Positions 1,550 through 40,157 of a DNA stretch of 64,000 nt are shown one piece after another. Below the pieces are notes generated by a model. It was not told where the DNA came from and made no database searches. It worked only from the letters and a program-made list of their open reading frames with translations. How positions within the stretch are numbered: position 1 is the stretch's first letter; the number at the start of each line of letters is the position of its first letter. Source of the stretch: Aneurinibacillus terranovensis DSM 18919 (lineage in GTDB: Bacteria > Bacillota > Bacilli > Aneurinibacillales > Aneurinibacillaceae); the NCBI RefSeq assembly GCF_000430625.1, contig NZ_AUMJ01000017.1, positions 1 to 64,000 of the forward strand, in the 5' to 3' direction. Both the position numbers and the translations under genes were made by a program.

Positions 1550-3079
1550 TTATCCGGAAAGGTTATTGATGATATATGTTTTTAAATCCACAAGCCTTGG
1601 GTTTTTAAAAGCGTCAGGTTCCTCATCAGTAATCATAAGTGGGACAATCGAATCGGTCGTGTGCAGAGATCCGTGGCACGCTCCCCCACGATGTACAGCA
1701 TCATGTTTCGTGATAAATTCGCATCCGGGTACCGCCGTAGCCACAATCACCTGCCCTTCACGGGCGTACAAGGCTCCATATAGCCTGGAGCAAATATCGG
1801 GATACTTTCCATATTCCATAAGCGCTGATGGCGATGTTCCTTCTTCCCTGAGTACAGCGTCGATTACAGAAAGATCCCCCTCGAGCACCCACTTCCGTCC
1901 ATACGGGTCGATAGCCTGTTTCAAAGAACCGGACTCGTCGTTCCCATCCCCGCCTCCTTTACTTTGCCCTTTTGCGGCGGGTGAAAAATATAAACTTTTT
2001 TCCCCGTGCTGCACGTGTACCCCATTATGTTTCTTCCACGCCAGTAAATCGATGCGCTCTTCTTTTTTCAATCGATGGACAATCTCCTCCAAAACCCCAT
2101 CCTTTAAAGGATAAAAATAACACGCACGTTCATTATTACAAATAACAAAATCGTCCTTGTCCGGATTCACTGTTTTAGTAAATGCTACGGCCTTATCGAA
2201 AAAAAAGCGTTCTAGATTGATCGTCCCCTCTTTGCGTGCTTTAACTTTTGTCTGGCCGTGATCCCCTGTGATAATAAACCGGCAGCGCTGCAACGCTTGT
2301 TCAAATCCGCCAAAGCTGTTTACCAAACGGCCGATTTGCTTGTCAACCTTTGCCAGAATCGCCGCCCCTTTTTCCGGGTTTCGGTGGTAGGCAAAATCCG
2401 AATCCGAAAGATAAATGGCCGTAAAGTCGGCAAGCCTGTCTTCCTTTATCATCCGGCAGGCAATATCTATCGCAAAGCTGTCATTTAGGCCGTACTTTTT
2501 AAAAATGGACTGGTTGAAGCTCCACGGAAGCGGCCGCCCATAGGAGGGAATAAAATTCCCCATACTGCATACGGAAGGGCCGGTTGCTCCCGAACGTTTT
2601 AATTTCCACAAAACCCATCTCATCAATCCGGGCTTGGTTACCCTATGATTTGCTTCCGCCCTGTGAACCGCCATATTTATCGATGCACATGTCTTACTAT
2701 CCCGGGCCAACTCCTCAAATATCGTTGTCGTATTTGGATTTAAGTGCTGCTCATTTAAACCGATAAGAACATCCTCCGCACACCGGGTAAGCCCCATTCG
2801 CCAAACCGCTTTCCATCCATTGATATAATTCACAATTCGTTTTTCTTCATGGCTGTACCAGACAAGACCCGGCACAGCATGCTCCTCCGGGTAGCACCCA
2901 CACATAAGCGAGGAGTCAATGGAGGCCGATACAGTGGGAAACACGGACACACAATTATCCCAGAAGGCACCCCGCGCGGCAAGCGAAGATAATGTGGGAA
3001 TCATCTTTTTTTGTCTGGCTTCCCGAAAAATATGAGGCATAAATGAATCGATCAGGATAAAGATGATTTTCTTAGTCAT
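1550..3079 (-). CDS. Alkaline phosphatase-superfamily protein (nucleotide pyrophosphatase/phosphodiesterase type)
   Basis: A 509-aa protein. Metal and nucleophile motifs of the superfamily are visible: the N-terminal metal Asp in FILIDSFMP (about residue 11), the presumed Thr nucleophile in FPTVSASIDSSLMCG (about 48), DSDFAYHRN (about 226) and ITGDHGQTK (about 271). No signal peptide is obvious, so it is probably cytoplasmic. The family hydrolyses phosphodiester, pyrophosphate or phosphonoacetate-type bonds; the actual substrate is unknown. The start is supported by GGAAGGTGAG 6 nt upstream. It is divergent from the efflux operon at 3216. Confidence 0.75.
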   Translation of the reverse strand: MTKKIIFILIDSFMPHIFREARQKKMIPTLSSLAARGAFWDNCVSVFPTVSASIDSSLMCGCYPEEHAVPGLVWYSHEEKRIVNYINGWKAVWRMGLTRCAEDVLIGLNEQHLNPNTTTIFEELARDSKTCASINMAVHRAEANHRVTKPGLMRWVLWKLKRSGATGPSVCSMGNFIPSYGRPLPWSFNQSIFKKYGLNDSFAIDIACRMIKEDRLADFTAIYLSDSDFAYHRNPEKGAAILAKVDKQIGRLVNSFGGFEQALQRCRFIITGDHGQTKVKARKEGTINLERFFFDKAVAFTKTVNPDKDDFVICNNERACYFYPLKDGVLEEIVHRLKKEERIDLLAWKKHNGVHVQHGEKSLYFSPAAKGQSKGGGDGNDESGSLKQAIDPYGRKWVLEGDLSVIDAVLREEGTSPSALMEYGKYPDICSRLYGALYAREGQVIVATAVPGCEFITKHDAVHRGGACHGSLHTTDSIVPLMITDEEPDAFKNPRLVDLKTYIINNLSG

Positions 3080-3141
3080 ACGCGCTCACCTTCCCTTTAT
3101 TTAGTCTTCCTTTTATTCATTTACCAATTGAAATATTTTTA

Positions 3142-3170
3142 TTTACAATTACTTCCCGATTCAATACACT
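3142..3170 (+). promoter_or_regulatory. Promoter of the efflux operon
   Basis: -35 TTTACA at 3142-3147, a 17-bp spacer, and -10 TACACT at 3165-3170. The operator palindrome begins 2 bp downstream, so a bound repressor would cover the transcription start. Confidence 0.55.
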
Positions 3171-3171
3171 A

Positions 3172-3193
3172 TAAGTGAGTAATCACTCATTTA
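3172..3193 (+). promoter_or_regulatory. TetR-type operator palindrome
   Basis: A 22-bp imperfect inverted repeat. The arms are TAAgTGAGT and ACTCAtTTA around AATC, with one mismatched pair. Size, symmetry and position (start site of the operon that ends with its own TetR-family gene at 6337) fit autoregulation. Binding by that protein is inferred. Confidence 0.6.
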
Positions 3194-3215
3194 TTTGCTG
3201 AGGGTGGTGTATTGC

Positions 3216-4409
3216 ATGAGAAAACGATATCTTTTGGTGACTTTATTTGCTTTCTTACTTCTAACGGGATGCCAAGAAAAAAAGGGGCCGGCTGTCTACT
3301 CGGGTACGATTGAGGGGACAGAAATTCTAATCCAGAGCGAACTGGCCGGGGCCGTTGCGAACATGCTTGTTGATGAAGGTGCAAATATAAAAGCGGCGCA
3401 GCCGGTCGCAAAACTTGACGACCGTGCGTATCTGCTGCAGGTTCAGCAAGCAAGAGCCGGGGTGGACGCTGCGCGTGCCAAGTTCGAAGAAGCAAAGGCC
3501 GGCAGCCGGTCGCAGGAAATTAGTCAGGCTTTATCCCAGGTAGAGCAGACTCAGGCTGGAGTGGAATCGGCGCAAGCCCAGGCGAAAGCGGCAGCCGACC
3601 ATATTGCCATGCTGCAGGCAAACCGGTCTCAGCTTGTCAGCCAGCTGGATGGTGCCCGGAAAACCTTGGCGTATCAAACAAAACGCCTGCATAACGCAGA
3701 AATTTTATATAAAGAAAGTGCGATCGCGCAGCAGGATATGGACGCGTTGCGGGAAGCCGTCAACCAGGCACAGACGCAAACAGATAATTTGAAGGCGCAA
3801 ATTCAGTCGTTCGACGCCCAGATTACCCAGGCAGAAAATGAACAAAAAGCGAGTGAGGCGGGTCAAATATCAGCCGTTTCCAGCGAGAAAGCGGCGCAGG
3901 CAAAGCTCGACCTGTTAAAAGCAGGCAACACGGATTATACGCTCCGTAACCTCCTGGCCCTTGTCGAACAGGCGGACAGCCAGCTTGCCCAGGCGAAGCT
4001 AAATGAGGCGAAAACGGTCATCCTATCTCCTGATGATGGCATTATGCTACGCAAACATGTGGAAAACGGAGAAATTATTAAACAGGGGGCAACGTTGTAC
4101 ACGCTGCTTAAAAAAGGAGAATTAAAGGTTGTTGTCTATGTGCCGGAAGCACAGCTTAATGAGGTAAAGGTAGGCGAGCCGGCCTCGATTGCCGTTGACG
4201 CTTACCCTGATCAAACATTCAAGGGCAAGGTTACCCGCATTGCCAGCGAAGCAGAGTTTACCCCGAAAAACGTCCAGACACCGGATGAACGGACGAAAAT
4301 GGTATTCGCCGTCACCGTTGAACTTACGGAAGGTTTGAATGTGCTAAAGCCGGGCATGCCGGCCGATGTAACGTTTGCCAACCCCCTAAAAGCGGGTGAG
4401 AAGAAATGA
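3216..4409 (+). CDS. HlyD-family efflux adaptor lipoprotein
   Basis: A 397-aa membrane-fusion-type adaptor. It has a basic N-terminus, a hydrophobic stretch and the lipobox LLTGC near residues 14-18, so it should be a lipoprotein on the outer face of the membrane. A biotinyl-lipoyl-like half (VYSGTIEGTE, VDEGANIKAAQPVAKLD) precedes a long Gln/Ala-rich coiled coil (about 75-240). The second lipoyl half (LSPDDGIMLRKHVENGEIIKQG) and a beta-barrel domain follow. The ATG at 3216 is preceded by GAGGGTGG at 8 nt; an in-frame TTG upstream lies in the operator. Its stop overlaps the ATP-binding gene as ATGA. The layout resembles the YbhGFS exporters of Gram-negatives, which is unusual for a single-membrane cell. 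Substrate unknown. Confidence 0.85.
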   Translation: MRKRYLLVTLFAFLLLTGCQEKKGPAVYSGTIEGTEILIQSELAGAVANMLVDEGANIKAAQPVAKLDDRAYLLQVQQARAGVDAARAKFEEAKAGSRSQEISQALSQVEQTQAGVESAQAQAKAAADHIAMLQANRSQLVSQLDGARKTLAYQTKRLHNAEILYKESAIAQQDMDALREAVNQAQTQTDNLKAQIQSFDAQITQAENEQKASEAGQISAVSSEKAAQAKLDLLKAGNTDYTLRNLLALVEQADSQLAQAKLNEAKTVILSPDDGIMLRKHVENGEIIKQGATLYTLLKKGELKVVVYVPEAQLNEVKVGEPASIAVDAYPDQTFKGKVTRIASEAEFTPKNVQTPDERTKMVFAVTVELTEGLNVLKPGMPADVTFANPLKAGEKK

Positions 4410-6336: not shown

Positions 6337-7008
6337 TTGGATCATCAGGAGATTTTCGACCAGGCCATCCAGGGTATGCTGGACTCATTAAAAAATGAAC
6401 AGGAGATGACCGAAAAGCAGCGGCGCATTCTGGAATCAGCGATTAAGCTTTTCGCGGAAAAAGGGTTTCACGCATCTTCGACAAGCGAAATTGCGAAAGA
6501 TGCCGGCGTTGCGGAAGGAACCATTTTCCGGCATTTTAAAACAAAAAAAGATTTACTGTACGCGTTAGTGGCTCCGATGCTGATTAAATTCGCCTCTCCT
6601 TTAGTGTTAAAGGATGTGAAGCGGATTATGGGCGATGCGGAACAGCCGGCCGATCAAATCCTGGAACAATTGCTGCACAACCGGTTGGAACTCATTAATC
6701 AGAACTGGCCCCGCATGAAAATCATTATGCAGGAGGCGCAGTTTCACCCCGAAATTATGGATGCTATTGTCGAAAACATTGCCCGAGAGGCACGCTTACT
6801 AGGGGAGAACTTTGTTCAAACGCGTATGGATGCAGGGGAATTTAGAGATTTACCCGTTAAAGCCGTGATCCGTGCGATCGTCTCCACCGCACTTGGCTAT
6901 ATCTTTTTTCAACATATGTTTCCTAACGAAGAAAACGACCGCACCGAAGAAATCCGAACCATGGTCGATATTTTATTGAACGGGATAAAAAGGAAAAACC
7001 CGGATTAA
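6337..7008 (+). CDS. TetR/AcrR-family transcriptional repressor
   Basis: A 223-aa protein. The N-terminal helix-turn-helix (RRILESAIKLFAEKGFHASSTSEIAKDAGVAEGTIFRHFKTKKDLL) lies at about residues 26-70, and a TetR-type ligand domain with no cofactor motif follows. The TTG start at 6337 is supported by AGGAGGG 7-8 nt upstream. It is the last gene of the exporter operon, 16 bp after the permease. It probably represses its own operon through the palindrome at 3172-3193. Confidence 0.85.
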   Translation: MDHQEIFDQAIQGMLDSLKNEQEMTEKQRRILESAIKLFAEKGFHASSTSEIAKDAGVAEGTIFRHFKTKKDLLYALVAPMLIKFASPLVLKDVKRIMGDAEQPADQILEQLLHNRLELINQNWPRMKIIMQEAQFHPEIMDAIVENIAREARLLGENFVQTRMDAGEFRDLPVKAVIRAIVSTALGYIFFQHMFPNEENDRTEEIRTMVDILLNGIKRKNPD

Positions 7009-7020
7009 CCGGGTTTTTTT
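6994..7020 (+). terminator. Terminator of the efflux operon
   Basis: AAAACCCGG / CCGGGTTTT hairpin with a 5-base loop and a run of T. It overlaps the tetR stop codon. Confidence 0.9.
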
Positions 7021-7095
7021 AAAAACCAACAATAGATTTAAATTTTGGAAATCAAGCTTTGATAAGAGAAGTAACAACATTAAGATAAAGCATTT

Positions 7096-7266
7096 AACAA
7101 GTTTATATTAAAGGTAGTTATTGCAATGTTTATCTTTACTGTTTTAGTTGGATGTTCTTCATAAAGCAAAGAGCAAGCCTCTAAATCTAATGAAAATGCT
7201 GCATCTCAGCAAGAGAAGAAAAATAATTATCGTTTTAAGGCTAAATACAGAGAGTGTAGGTTTTAG
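7096..7266 (+). pseudogene. Decayed small lipoprotein gene
   Basis: In one frame the sequence reads NKFILKVVIAMFIFTVLVGCSS, a clear lipoprotein signal peptide and lipobox (LVGC). A TAA stop at 7162-7164 follows, and the same frame then continues as SKEQASKSNENAASQQEKK, a normal low-complexity lipoprotein linker, ending at TAG 7264-7266. No convincing start codon with a ribosome site precedes it; an ATG at 7126 lies inside the signal peptide. It looks like a lipoprotein gene that lost its start, gained a nonsense codon and lost its 3' part. Confidence 0.5.
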
Positions 7267-7411
7267 CCGGTAAAGGAAACGTTCGTAGATGCATCGAAAT
7301 CGGTTTCTTTTTGCTTTTTTCCCGCTTCCCAGTGCTTCACTGGAGTTTGGAGGTGCTTTTAGGCCCGATTGTCTCCATCATTGAGCTACCCGGATGTTTC
7401 GGGCCTCGCGT

Positions 7412-8119
7412 TCAACCGCGAAGCAAATCTATTTCCTCTTCCGTTAGCTCCCGGTATTCTCCCGGTTCCAACTCTTCATCCAGACTGAGATTTCCCATGG
7501 TTAGCCGTTTTAAAAAGATAACCTTTTTACCGACCGCCTGGAACATGCGTTTTACCTGATGAAATTTCCCCTCATAGATCGTCAGCTCAATTTCGGAAAT
7601 GGTCCCCTGACTGATAATGTTTAGCTCGGCAGGAAGGGTTGTATACCCGTCATCAAGGGTAACGCCTTTCTTGAATTTTGCCGCGTCTTCTTCGGTCACA
7701 CGGCCTTCAATCCTGGCAAAATACATTTTGGGTACATGCTTTTTCGGTGATAATAATTCGTGGGCCAGCTTGCCGTCGTTTGTCAGCAAAAGCAGGCCTT
7801 CCGTATCCTTATCAAGGCGTCCCACTGGAAACACGTCAAACGAATAATATTCAGGGTCGAGTATATCAACCACGGTTTCATCCACCAAATCCTCCGTGGC
7901 AGATACAACCCCCTGCGGTTTGTTCATCATCAGGTAAACTATTTCCCGGTAATGAACAACCTCCCCCGCGATCACAATTTCCTGTGTTGACGGATCGACA
8001 TGCATGCTCGAATCTTTGGCAACGACTCCGTCTACCCTTACCATTCCGTTTTTGCATATTTTTTTAATTTCTTTACGGGAACCGTAGCCCATATTGGCCA
8101 GTATCTTGTCCAATCTCAT
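7412..8119 (-). CDS. rsuA: RsuA-family 16S rRNA pseudouridine synthase
   Basis: A 235-aa protein. The N-terminal S4 RNA-binding domain (MRLDKILANMGYGSRKEIKKICKNGMVRVDG) precedes the synthase domain with the catalytic motif GRLDKDTEGLLLLTNDG at about 101-117. The catalytic Asp is in RLD. Length and domain order match RsuA/YtzG proteins, which isomerise a uridine in 16S rRNA (U516 in E. coli numbering). RluB/RluE-type 23S enzymes share the fold, so the target base is inferred. The gene is apparently monocistronic. Confidence 0.8.
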   Translation of the reverse strand: MRLDKILANMGYGSRKEIKKICKNGMVRVDGVVAKDSSMHVDPSTQEIVIAGEVVHYREIVYLMMNKPQGVVSATEDLVDETVVDILDPEYYSFDVFPVGRLDKDTEGLLLLTNDGKLAHELLSPKKHVPKMYFARIEGRVTEEDAAKFKKGVTLDDGYTTLPAELNIISQGTISEIELTIYEGKFHQVKRMFQAVGKKVIFLKRLTMGNLSLDEELEPGEYRELTEEEIDLLRG

Positions 8120-26438: not shown

Positions 26439-26846
26439 CTAGACTCTGCCGGACTCAATCCATTTTGCCCAATCTTCACGGCCGTTATCAAAGGCTCTTT
26501 TGGCAGCAGTACGCCAATCGTATGGAACTGAAATATGTTCGATCATCCATTGCTCTGATTTTTTCGATAACACTGCATAATTAGCATAAAGAGAACCCGA
26601 TTCCATTCCATGAGGATACGGATAATCGTCAGTGTATGCGGGTAAACCTACGCTTCCGGGATTTATTATGATTTGACCGGTTGGCAGATAAACCGTCCTC
26701 GGGATATGGGTATGGGCGCATAAAATAATAGACTCTCTCCTATCAATGTTCGTAATTTCCCTTCTCTCCATATCTTCAAAAACAGCATCTATGCCCACGA
26801 ATTTCCGTGTACATCTGCAATAATTGCCAGGGTATGAATTCTGAAA
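26439..26846 (-). pseudogene. Metallophosphoesterase, deleted and frameshifted
   Basis: From the 5' side the minus strand reads FRIHTLAIIADVHGNSWA (the D-x-H-G-N metal motif). A frameshift near 26795 leads to IDAVFEDMERREITNI, then the sequence jumps to DRRESIILCAHTHIP (the H-T-H metal motif), NPGSVGLP and a normal C-terminus ending WAKWIESGRV. Intact family members are about 240 aa, with the G-D and G-N-H/E blocks between these parts. About 80-100 residues are missing here, and no start codon is present before RIHTL. The gene is dead. A 50-bp copy of its 3' end lies at 24120-24172. Confidence 0.75.
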
Positions 26847-26905: not shown

Positions 26906-26935
26906 TTGACCTATATACCCATATGGGTATATATT
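26906..26935 (+). promoter_or_regulatory. Promoter with CstR-type palindrome before the SQR operon
   Basis: ATATACCCATATGGGTATAT (26913-26932) is a perfect 20-bp palindrome. It lies between TTGACC (26906-26911) and TATATT (26930-26935), a promoter with 18-bp spacing. ATACCC-N4-GGGTAT is the operator form of CsoR-family persulfide sensors (CstR). No CstR gene is in the window. Confidence 0.75.
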
Positions 26936-26995
26936 GTTAATTAGAAATATTCTGATTTGCTATTTGATTACTAAAGACAAAAAGGGGGAGCAGAT

Positions 26996-27226
26996 ATGTT
27001 TGTAGTTAATGGAAAAGGGAACCTCATCCATTTGCTAGCGGGTATTTTTATTCTGGCTAGTTTAACATTAGCAGTATTTGTATCTTTATACTGGCTGCTA
27101 TTTACGGCTTTTGTTGGTTTTAATTTGATTATTTCATCATTTACCGGATTCTGTTTATTGGAAAAAATCTTAGTCCGTATGGGGGTGAATCATAAATCAA
27201 TTTCGTGTCAGATTTATCGAAAATAG
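26996..27226 (+). CDS. DUF2892/YgaP-type small membrane protein
   Basis: A 76-aa protein with two TM helices (LIHLLAGIFILASLTLAVFVSL and LLFTAFVGFNLIISSFTGFCLLEKIL). The closing F-T-G-F-C-L-L-E-K-I-L pattern is characteristic of DUF2892 proteins, often linked to rhodanese or sulfide-oxidising genes. GGGGGAG lies 6 nt before the ATG. It is the first gene of the operon with the SQR-like flavoprotein. Confidence 0.8.
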   Translation: MFVVNGKGNLIHLLAGIFILASLTLAVFVSLYWLLFTAFVGFNLIISSFTGFCLLEKILVRMGVNHKSISCQIYRK

Positions 27227-27293
27227 AGTTCATTTTGTTCTCTTTACAAGTCAAATAGTTAATCGCTTTTGGAAAGAAAAGGAGGAAAATGCA

Positions 27294-28715
27294 TTGGCGA
27301 AGGTTGTAATTTTAGGTGCGGGTTTTTCCGGTCAAACCGCAGCTCTTTACTTACGTAAAGAGCTGGGGCGGGAACACGATGTAATTGTTGTAAACCCATG
27401 GCCCAGATTCACCTATATTCCCTCATTAGTATGGGTAGGCATCGGCCGCATGGATCCGGATCAGACGATGTTTTATTTGGAACCCATATATAAAAGAAAA
27501 GGAATTCACTTTGTTCAAGCATGGGCGAGAGAAATCCATCCAGATGAACAATATGTTCTTATAGAAAATAAAGATGGGAAAAAAGAGAAAATTGAATATG
27601 ATTATTTGATTAACGCGACAGGCCCCCATTTAAACTTTGCCGGTACGGAAGGTCTGGGACCTGATCATGAAACCACGCAGTCCATATGTAACATTCACCA
27701 TGCCAAGCTGGCACGGGACGCATATTTAGAAACAGTTCATCGCATGGAAAAGGGAGATACGGTTACTATTTTAGTAGGAACGGGCCATGGAACGTCTACG
27801 TGTCAGGGTGCGGCCTTAGAGTACATTAGCAACATTCATGCCGATCTGGTGAGACGTAAACTACGTCACCGGGCTAAAATTATGTGGATTTCAAATGAAC
27901 CAAAATTAGGAGACTTGGGTGTAGGTGGCGTATTCGCAAAAAAATACGGATATGTCATGAGTTCTGAATCCTTTCTTAAATCTCTGTTTTCTGAGCAGGA
28001 AATTTATTATCAAGTGCAAAGTGCCGTCCAAAAGGTAGACAAAAAATGTGTCTACTGGGAAAACTACGAAGGGGAACAAGGCGAGATCCAATATGATTTT
28101 TCTATGTTAATCCCGCAATTTCAAGGTACAAAGATAAACTATATAGATAAAGACAATAATGACATTACAGGCAAAATGACAAATCCAGGCGGATTTATGC
28201 TGGTTGACGGCGGGTACGGAAAGAAATGGGAAGATGTAAGAGCAAGCGACTGGCCAGCCACTTATCAATCACCCTTTTACAAAAACATCTTTGCCGCAGG
28301 GATTGCTTTTGCAACACCAGGTTCAATTTCCAAACCATTTATCAACAAAAACGGTACGAACATTACAGCTACGGCTCCGCGAACCGGCATGGCTTCCGGA
28401 ATTATCGGACGTGTGGTTGCACACAACATCATTGATATGATCCGCGGCAACGAACCTTCCCATAAGGAAGCAATGACGGAAATGCCAGGTGCTTGTATCG
28501 CATCTATCGGAAAATCTGTATGGAATGGATCAGCAGCCTCAATCATATTGTATCCGGTTGCACCGGATTACGAGCGCTACCCCGACTACGGAAGAGATCT
28601 AAAAGCAAATTACCTGGATATCGGTCTTTCTGGTGCCTGGATCAAACGCTTGCTTCATACTGCCTTCATCTACAAAATGCAGGGAAATCCAGGTTGGAGT
28701 ATGATTCCCGAATAG
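27294..28715 (+). CDS. Sulfide:quinone oxidoreductase-like FAD flavoprotein
   Basis: A 473-aa two-dinucleotide-binding-domain flavoprotein. The N-terminal FAD motif is VVILGAGFSGQTAALYL (about 4-20), the central LINATGPHLNF (about 103-113) is present, and the second GxG region is ILVGTGHGTSTC. Cys in TSTCQGAALEY (about 163) and Cys in MPGACIASIG (about 399) are spaced as the two redox cysteines of SQR. C-terminal amphipathic helices (SGAWIKRLLHTAFIYKMQ) suit membrane docking. SQRs oxidise sulfide and pass electrons to quinone. The TTG at 27294 follows GGAGG by 8 nt. The CstR-type operator upstream fits sulfide/persulfide control. Confidence 0.8.
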   Translation: MAKVVILGAGFSGQTAALYLRKELGREHDVIVVNPWPRFTYIPSLVWVGIGRMDPDQTMFYLEPIYKRKGIHFVQAWAREIHPDEQYVLIENKDGKKEKIEYDYLINATGPHLNFAGTEGLGPDHETTQSICNIHHAKLARDAYLETVHRMEKGDTVTILVGTGHGTSTCQGAALEYISNIHADLVRRKLRHRAKIMWISNEPKLGDLGVGGVFAKKYGYVMSSESFLKSLFSEQEIYYQVQSAVQKVDKKCVYWENYEGEQGEIQYDFSMLIPQFQGTKINYIDKDNNDITGKMTNPGGFMLVDGGYGKKWEDVRASDWPATYQSPFYKNIFAAGIAFATPGSISKPFINKNGTNITATAPRTGMASGIIGRVVAHNIIDMIRGNEPSHKEAMTEMPGACIASIGKSVWNGSAASIILYPVAPDYERYPDYGRDLKANYLDIGLSGAWIKRLLHTAFIYKMQGNPGWSMIPE

Positions 28716-28727
28716 GAGGTTAAACCC

Positions 28728-28919
28728 ATGAAGCTGTTGAAAGAAATGAAACCGACAAGAGGAACACTTTTTTGGCGTAAATGCAAAATACTACAAATAA
28801 TCAAGTTCATATATCTTAATATTCGGATTTTAAAAATTGCACTTTTTCCTCCAAAACATACCGAAACTCATAGCAGCCAAAAGGCCGAACATAATCGTTC
28901 GTTATCAAATTCAAATTGA
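28728..28919 (+). CDS. Hypothetical small basic protein
   Basis: A 63-aa protein with an excellent AGGAGGT 8 nt before ATG 28728, just 12 bp after the SQR-like gene, so it is likely the third gene of that operon. It is strongly basic, with an amphipathic hydrophobic stretch (KILQIIKFIYLNIRILKIALF) and a hydrophilic Ser/His/Asn-rich tail. No family recognised; peripheral membrane attachment is plausible. Confidence 0.5.
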   Translation: MKLLKEMKPTRGTLFWRKCKILQIIKFIYLNIRILKIALFPPKHTETHSSQKAEHNRSLSNSN

Positions 28920-39686: not shown

Positions 39687-40016
39687 TTATTTCATTAATT
39701 TGTTCATTGTCTTTAACAGTTCATCGATCACTTCCTGATCTCCGTCCTGAATTCTTTCAATCACACAACTTTTCATGTGGCCTTCCAGAAGAAGTTTTCC
39801 CACTGAATTGAGTGCGGACTGGATAGCCGCGATTTGATTCAGAATATCATCACAGTAGACATCCTTCTCAATCATTCCCTTTACGCCCCGAATCTGACCT
39901 TCAATTCGGTTTAATCGACTGACTAAATTCGTTTTCATTTTATTTGAATGATGGCTTTTTCTTTCGTCCGTATGCGTGAAATTATCCTGACTATGATTTC
40001 CCTTTGTATTTTCCAT
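39687..40016 (-). CDS. csoR: CsoR-family copper-sensing repressor
   Basis: A 109-aa DUF156 protein. A His/Asn-rich N-terminal extension (ENTKGNHSQDNFTHTDERKSHHSNK) precedes the core LVSRLNRIEGQIRGVKGMIEKDVYCDDILNQIAAIQSALNSVGKLLLEGHMKSCV. The Cu(I) ligands are all present: Cys in VYCDD, His and Cys in GHMKSC (C-H-C). This separates it from the Cys-Cys persulfide sensor CstR. GGAGAG lies 9 nt before ATG. Its own promoter carries a CsoR-type operator, so autoregulation is expected. Confidence 0.93.
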   Translation of the reverse strand: MENTKGNHSQDNFTHTDERKSHHSNKMKTNLVSRLNRIEGQIRGVKGMIEKDVYCDDILNQIAAIQSALNSVGKLLLEGHMKSCVIERIQDGDQEVIDELLKTMNKLMK

Positions 40017-40128: not shown

Positions 40129-40157
40129 ATTATAGCATACCCCTGTACCGTATACAA
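40129..40157 (-). promoter_or_regulatory. csoR-copZ promoter with CsoR-type operator
   Basis: Minus strand -35 TTGTAT (40157-40152), 17-bp spacer, -10 TATAAT (40134-40129). The spacer ACGGTACAGGGGTATGC has the same G-tract/GTAT core and position as in the copA promoter. Confidence 0.75.

Follow-up and report, generated by a model that had tools for sequence, protein, structure and literature searches.

A predicted CstR regulon in Aneurinibacillus terranovensis that includes an SQR-like operon, a small conserved protein and an RND efflux operon

The 64,000-nucleotide stretch of the Aneurinibacillus terranovensis DSM 18919 genome analysed here (‘the window’; contig NZ_AUMJ01000017.1) raises a regulatory question: the promoter of an SQR-like operon carries a candidate operator of the type used by the persulfide sensor CstR, but the only sensor of that family (DUF156) encoded in the window is the copper-type CsoR. 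Does a CstR gene lie elsewhere in the genome, or does CsoR cross-read the site and link copper and sulfide? Both possibilities had been put forward in a sequence-only reading of the window, and its description of the promoter holds. The core ATACCCATATGGGTAT (ATACCC-N4-GGGTAT; 26915-26930) is a perfect palindrome that reaches 22 bp with its flanks (26912-26933), and it is framed by a -35-like hexamer, TTGACC (26906-26911, + strand), and a -10-like hexamer, TATATT (26930-26935, + strand), which overlaps the operator. As judged by consensus match, TTGACC-18-TATATT is the top promoter-like match of the region (10 of 12 positions), the number of such matches there being not above chance. We take the motif to resemble published CstR sites. 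The first of the three operon ORFs (26996-27226, 27294-28715 with a TTG start, and 28728-28919, all on the + strand and all as originally listed) begins 65 bases beyond the palindrome core. The CsoR (39687-40016, - strand) is indeed the sole DUF156 protein of the window and has the Cys-His-Cys ligand set of copper CsoR (Cys55, His80 and Cys84); among solved structures, CsoR 4m1p matches it with the best E-value.

Searching the whole genome (G000; 4.25 Mb, 98 contigs) with PF02583 located DUF156 sequences in four places: the window CsoR, two intact proteins encoded on contigs C13 and C52 (C13:51215-51454 and C52:8995-9231; 88.2 and 84.2 bits), and a decayed copy on contig C4. Both intact proteins combine the DUF156 fold and two conserved cysteines with loss of the His ligand, carrying Cys-Asn-Cys (C-N-C) at the positions of the CsoR Cys-His-Cys (C-H-C). 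The search for a His-less DUF156 protein that the sequence-only reading had proposed thus returned two, and two intact genes of the CstR type, which it had envisaged elsewhere, are present. The C52 gene comes after two rhodanese genes and the C13 gene after a CoA-disulfide-reductase–rhodanese fusion; overall, the cstR neighbourhoods, that of the decayed copy included, hold rhodanese, CoA-disulfide/persulfide reductase, TauE and persulfide-dioxygenase-like genes. The C13 and C52 surroundings are typical CstR settings, going by excerpts of PMC5480029, PMC9405070 and PMC9918477. The C4 copy (G000:C4:73437-73744; L014:4430-4745) has its frame broken by stops, still possesses a near-perfect operator and adjoins a cluster of TusA-rhodanese, TauE and lactamase_B-rhodanese (persulfide-dioxygenase-like) genes. 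A tree of 32 DUF156 proteins, drawn from the genomes under study, is split by a branch with 100/100 support: all C-N-C proteins and one C-Y-C protein (L051) lie on one side of it, and all C-H-C proteins lie opposite, along with two other odd rows (one C-H-F and a second C-Y-C); L051 and both of these rows sit on long branches.

The distribution of the operator connects the sqr operon with these sensors. Perfect ATACCC-N4-GGGTAT sites occur three times in the 4.25-Mb genome, against about 0.22 expected from base composition, and they precede the sqr operon, the C52 cstR and an RND efflux operon on contig C3. The relaxed pattern ATACC-N6-GGTAT yields 10 sites as compared to 3 for the reversed-pattern control. 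Six of the 10 closely precede sulfur or persulfide genes: rhodanese plus cstR (C52, two sites), CoA-disulfide reductase–rhodanese (C13), the decayed cstR (C4), TusA-rhodanese (C32) and the sqr operon. The other four comprise one at the RND operon, two inside ORFs and one about 350 bp from a gene. The palindrome of the sqr promoter is therefore shared with cstR-linked genes of the same genome, both intact cstR operons carrying the same operator type. At up to one mismatch to ATACCC-N4-GGGTAT, the genome holds 11 sites versus 7 for the control, and so weak sites are unspecific and not to be trusted alone. The distant relaxed site (G000:C7:610-625; L066) is followed, after about 350 bp, by ORFs that by eye look CcdA-like and thioredoxin-like; it could be chance.

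The flavoprotein is rare: at E <=1e-60, only six of the 398 class genomes encode it. We added five loci from named genomes (Bacillus sp. DNRA2, an uncultured Bacillus MAG, B. marasmi, Fervidibacillus halotolerans and Schinkia azotoformans), giving 12 sqr copies with the window's own included. One named locus (L022) holds two of them, at 2242-3660 and 6365-7783, a few kb apart and each equipped with its own operator and small partner gene. Six of the 11 other copies (5 of 10 genomes, all of them named loci) have a site with up to two mismatches no more than 61 bp upstream. The remaining five copies have no such site in the 250 bp upstream; for one of them, L032, a one-mismatch site stands ahead of the gene that precedes sqr. 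Among the 10 other sqr genomes, eight encode a C-N-C protein, and one (G067) encodes the C-Y-C protein that shares their clade; a MAG (G399) has the operator, but its DUF156 proteins are only C-H-C and C-H-F (a spurious second-domain row from L046 is excluded from this count). In two loci (L021:7320-9051 and L024:6857-8505) sqr is followed by a sensor kinase with the cysteine motif PYCSYCQLRE/Q and a response regulator, NreBC-like as judged by eye.

On the strength of these sequence data, we consider it highly probable that 26912-26933 is the site of a CstR-type persulfide sensor, supplied from C13 and/or C52, whose release would switch on the operon. Could the palindrome instead be a chance match, the operon being controlled otherwise, for example by a two-component system such as NreBC? 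Within the window the palindrome has no further match at up to two mismatches, and 80 of 100 shuffled windows contain at least one, which means that the window counts are within chance. The kinase and regulator ORFs that follow sqr in L021 and L024 would suit such control, as would Bacillus licheniformis, where, according to partial text of PMC9918477, NreBC drives the sqr promoter, to which no binding of the CstR-like YrkD was seen. We nevertheless find this explanation improbable: the 22-bp palindrome is perfect and sits within the promoter, its identical core recurs elsewhere in the genome, and more than half of the other sqr copies retain an upstream site.

Less probable still, to the point of being very doubtful, is that the copper sensor also binds the operator and joins the copper and sulfide responses: CsoR lies 13 kb from the operator in the same window, the ATACCC half of its own candidate site resembles the operator, and passages of PMC9918477 cite the Streptomyces coelicolor CsoR as a repressor of sulfur-oxidation genes, but two CstR-type proteins with matching operators are present, the candidate CsoR site found by inspection ahead of csoR (ATACCCCTGTACCGTAT, 40137-40153) is 17 bases long, one more than the CstR type, with a different symmetry, Thermus paralogs show little to no cross-binding in an excerpt of PMC10318464, and the S. 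aureus CsoR is reported, in the text extracted from PMC5480029, to be unresponsive to sulfide stress. At up to one mismatch, the 17-mer ATACC-N7-GGTAT matches 104 sites in the genome versus 138 for the control, and is thus uninformative beyond the csoR promoter itself. With CstR-type sensors encoded elsewhere in the genome, the copper link is superfluous and CsoR is not needed to account for the sqr operon. Cross-reading by CsoR gained no positive support, and the interpretation offered by the sequence-only reading, taken as a whole, is partly supported: the copper–sulfide puzzle is removed and a predicted regulon takes its place.

How would control by a CstR-type sensor work at this promoter? 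CstR with both of its cysteines reduced would occupy the DNA between the -35 and -10 elements and keep the operon silent. Once persulfide or polysulfide had linked the cysteines, the repressor would be released, and the three products of the operon (YgaP-type protein, SQR and 63-aa protein) would be made. The SQR would then use its FAD/cysteine site to oxidise sulfide and hand the electrons to the membrane quinone, while other members of the predicted regulon (C4, C32, C52), namely the rhodanese, TusA, DsrE and persulfide-dioxygenase-like proteins, would receive the sulfane sulfur. The scheme has several described parallels, each known to us from part of the source. The S. aureus cst operon (cstA, cstB, sqr; PMC5480029) similarly unites a dithiol CstR repressor with sqr and persulfide-handling genes, whereas the predicted targets here are scattered over at least five contigs and there are two intact cstR genes; furthermore, the S. 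aureus SQR is called type II in a title that this source cites, and the three-cysteine SQR here comes closest to type I enzymes. In B. licheniformis (PMC9918477) the CstR-like repressor YrkD is set over a sulfur cluster with genes for SQR, persulfide dioxygenase, TusA, DsrE and rhodanese, much as predicted here; there YrkD does not bind the sqr promoter region, whereas here a CstR-type site lies inside the sqr-operon promoter. Finally, CstR of Enterococcus faecalis controls rhodaneses and a CoA-persulfide reductase (PMC9405070); its Cst-like operon and coaP resemble our C52 and C13 loci, to which the predicted regulon here adds an SQR and an RND pump.

The flavoprotein itself (27294-28715, + strand; 473 aa from the TTG start) is SQR-like, as had been read from the sequence; the two spaced cysteines attributed to it did not stand, the conserved ones being three. 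Cys132, Cys170 and Cys401 are kept in all 12 copies, and Cys252 is found in the window copy alone. The top solved relatives are the Acidithiobacillus ferrooxidans SQRs (E 2.4e-37), and, in an alignment read by eye, the three conserved cysteines correspond to Cys128, Cys160 and Cys356 of the A. ferrooxidans enzyme, the residues that mark type I SQRs. A fold search with the predicted model likewise ranks the Aquifex aeolicus and A. ferrooxidans SQRs first, the model being modest (mean pLDDT 65, with the C-terminal 80 residues poor). The protein thus fits a three-cysteine, type I-like SQR: its cysteines match those of the A. ferrooxidans and A. aeolicus enzymes in place and these are its top sequence and fold matches, while it differs from them in its identity of only about 26-30% over the fold alignment, its extra inserts and its obligate small downstream gene. 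Its NCBIfam scores are far under the cut-offs, the top model being the type III seleno model (68 bits vs 525). A genome search, which might overlook SQRs of a distant type, found no second SQR-like protein; the one further match to the flavoprotein, at 29% identity, is an NDH-2-like protein as labelled by eye.

The obligate downstream gene encodes a basic, helical 63-aa protein (28728-28919, + strand) that follows every sqr copy examined: a homolog lies directly 3' of sqr in 12 of 12 copies, the one in G067 being divergent. Strong matches to the family profile (E <=2.2e-5) occur in exactly the six of 398 class genomes that have sqr; three of these six had contributed to the seed alignment and match by construction, and G030, G050, G067 and the five named loci stand outside it. 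Seven more matches (E 0.003-0.01) look like chance, and two of these contain stops. Identities at the codon positions of 0.65/0.76/0.44 (11 sequences, 43 codons) are consistent with translation and with selection at the protein level, and the family shares the motif EMKPT--TLF-R-C---Q--RF--LN-KI-K-ALFPP. Judging from this conservation, the 63-aa protein is the product of a real gene of an unnamed family rather than of an accidental ORF. The window protein has no match in Pfam and NCBIfam and no solved-structure match at E <=1; the Pfam family Ezh2_MCSS, matched by 2 of 11 family members with a best E of 0.023, was rejected as weak and irrelevant. The predicted model is a single basic helix (residues 11-39). 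We read the protein best as a dedicated small partner of SQR, which may perhaps aid membrane docking. For a membrane-bound quinone reductase with a small partner, a possible parallel, drawn here by us, is YjlC with the NDH-2 YjlD, the latter being among the fold matches of the flavoprotein (9a63). Literature searches found nothing on point, as judged by titles, for a small SQR partner protein, and nothing on YjlC among the matches listed.

The first gene of the operon encodes a YgaP-type transmembrane protein (26996-27226, + strand; 76 aa, DUF2892, PF11127; 31.9 bits against a Pfam cut-off of 25.3), and its relatives lead to the RND pump. On contig C3 of our genome, a core identical to the sqr operator (G000:C3:94315-94330; L063:316-331) lies inside a 26-base perfect palindrome and precedes genes for a membrane-fusion protein and an RND permease. 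A family-level search for orthologs recovered them in 1 of 11 genomes, its own, and a class-wide search with the membrane-fusion protein in 6 of 398, its own included. All six RND operons have an upstream palindrome within 350 bp, with 0, 1, 2, 2, 2 and 2 mismatches (the other five loci are L086-L090), as compared to 0.006-0.013 palindromes at up to two mismatches expected per 350 bp; at most five of these sites are independent, since the palindromes of G030 and G050 are common by descent. A C-N-C protein is encoded in all six genomes. In G060 a broken cstR copy comes just after the pump; in G100 two DsrE-like ORFs, recognised by eye, precede it. Relatives of the YgaP-type protein come right after the RND permease in G030 and G050 (L105:5124-5342 and L106:5216-5434) and behind a one-mismatch CstR-type site in G100 (L104:14629-14838). 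Given this operator distribution and these cstR, DsrE-like and YgaP-type neighbours, the pump and the YgaP-type protein look like CstR regulon members. A literature search for CstR linked with RND pumps found nothing, as judged by titles.

That a CstR is encoded elsewhere in the genome is ordinary; what deserves specialist attention is the small partner protein and the pump. Both are testable newcomers to sulfide biology, one following every copy of this SQR subtype that was examined, the other lying behind CstR-type sites in six genomes. Tentatively, and with slightly less than even confidence, we suggest that in this Firmicutes group the control exerted by CstR reaches beyond sulfide oxidation to a dedicated RND efflux pump and a YgaP-type protein, and that the SQR is a two-protein enzyme with an undescribed small helical subunit, the whole set serving to oxidise sulfide and to rid the cell of a reactive sulfur product or damaged thiol. 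Should the pump prove to belong here, Gram-positive bacteria would have a direct tie between persulfide stress and RND efflux. On its upstream side, the operon is adjoined by a short phosphodiesterase-like ORF (26439-26798, - strand) from which, as seen by eye, the N-terminal part is apparently missing.
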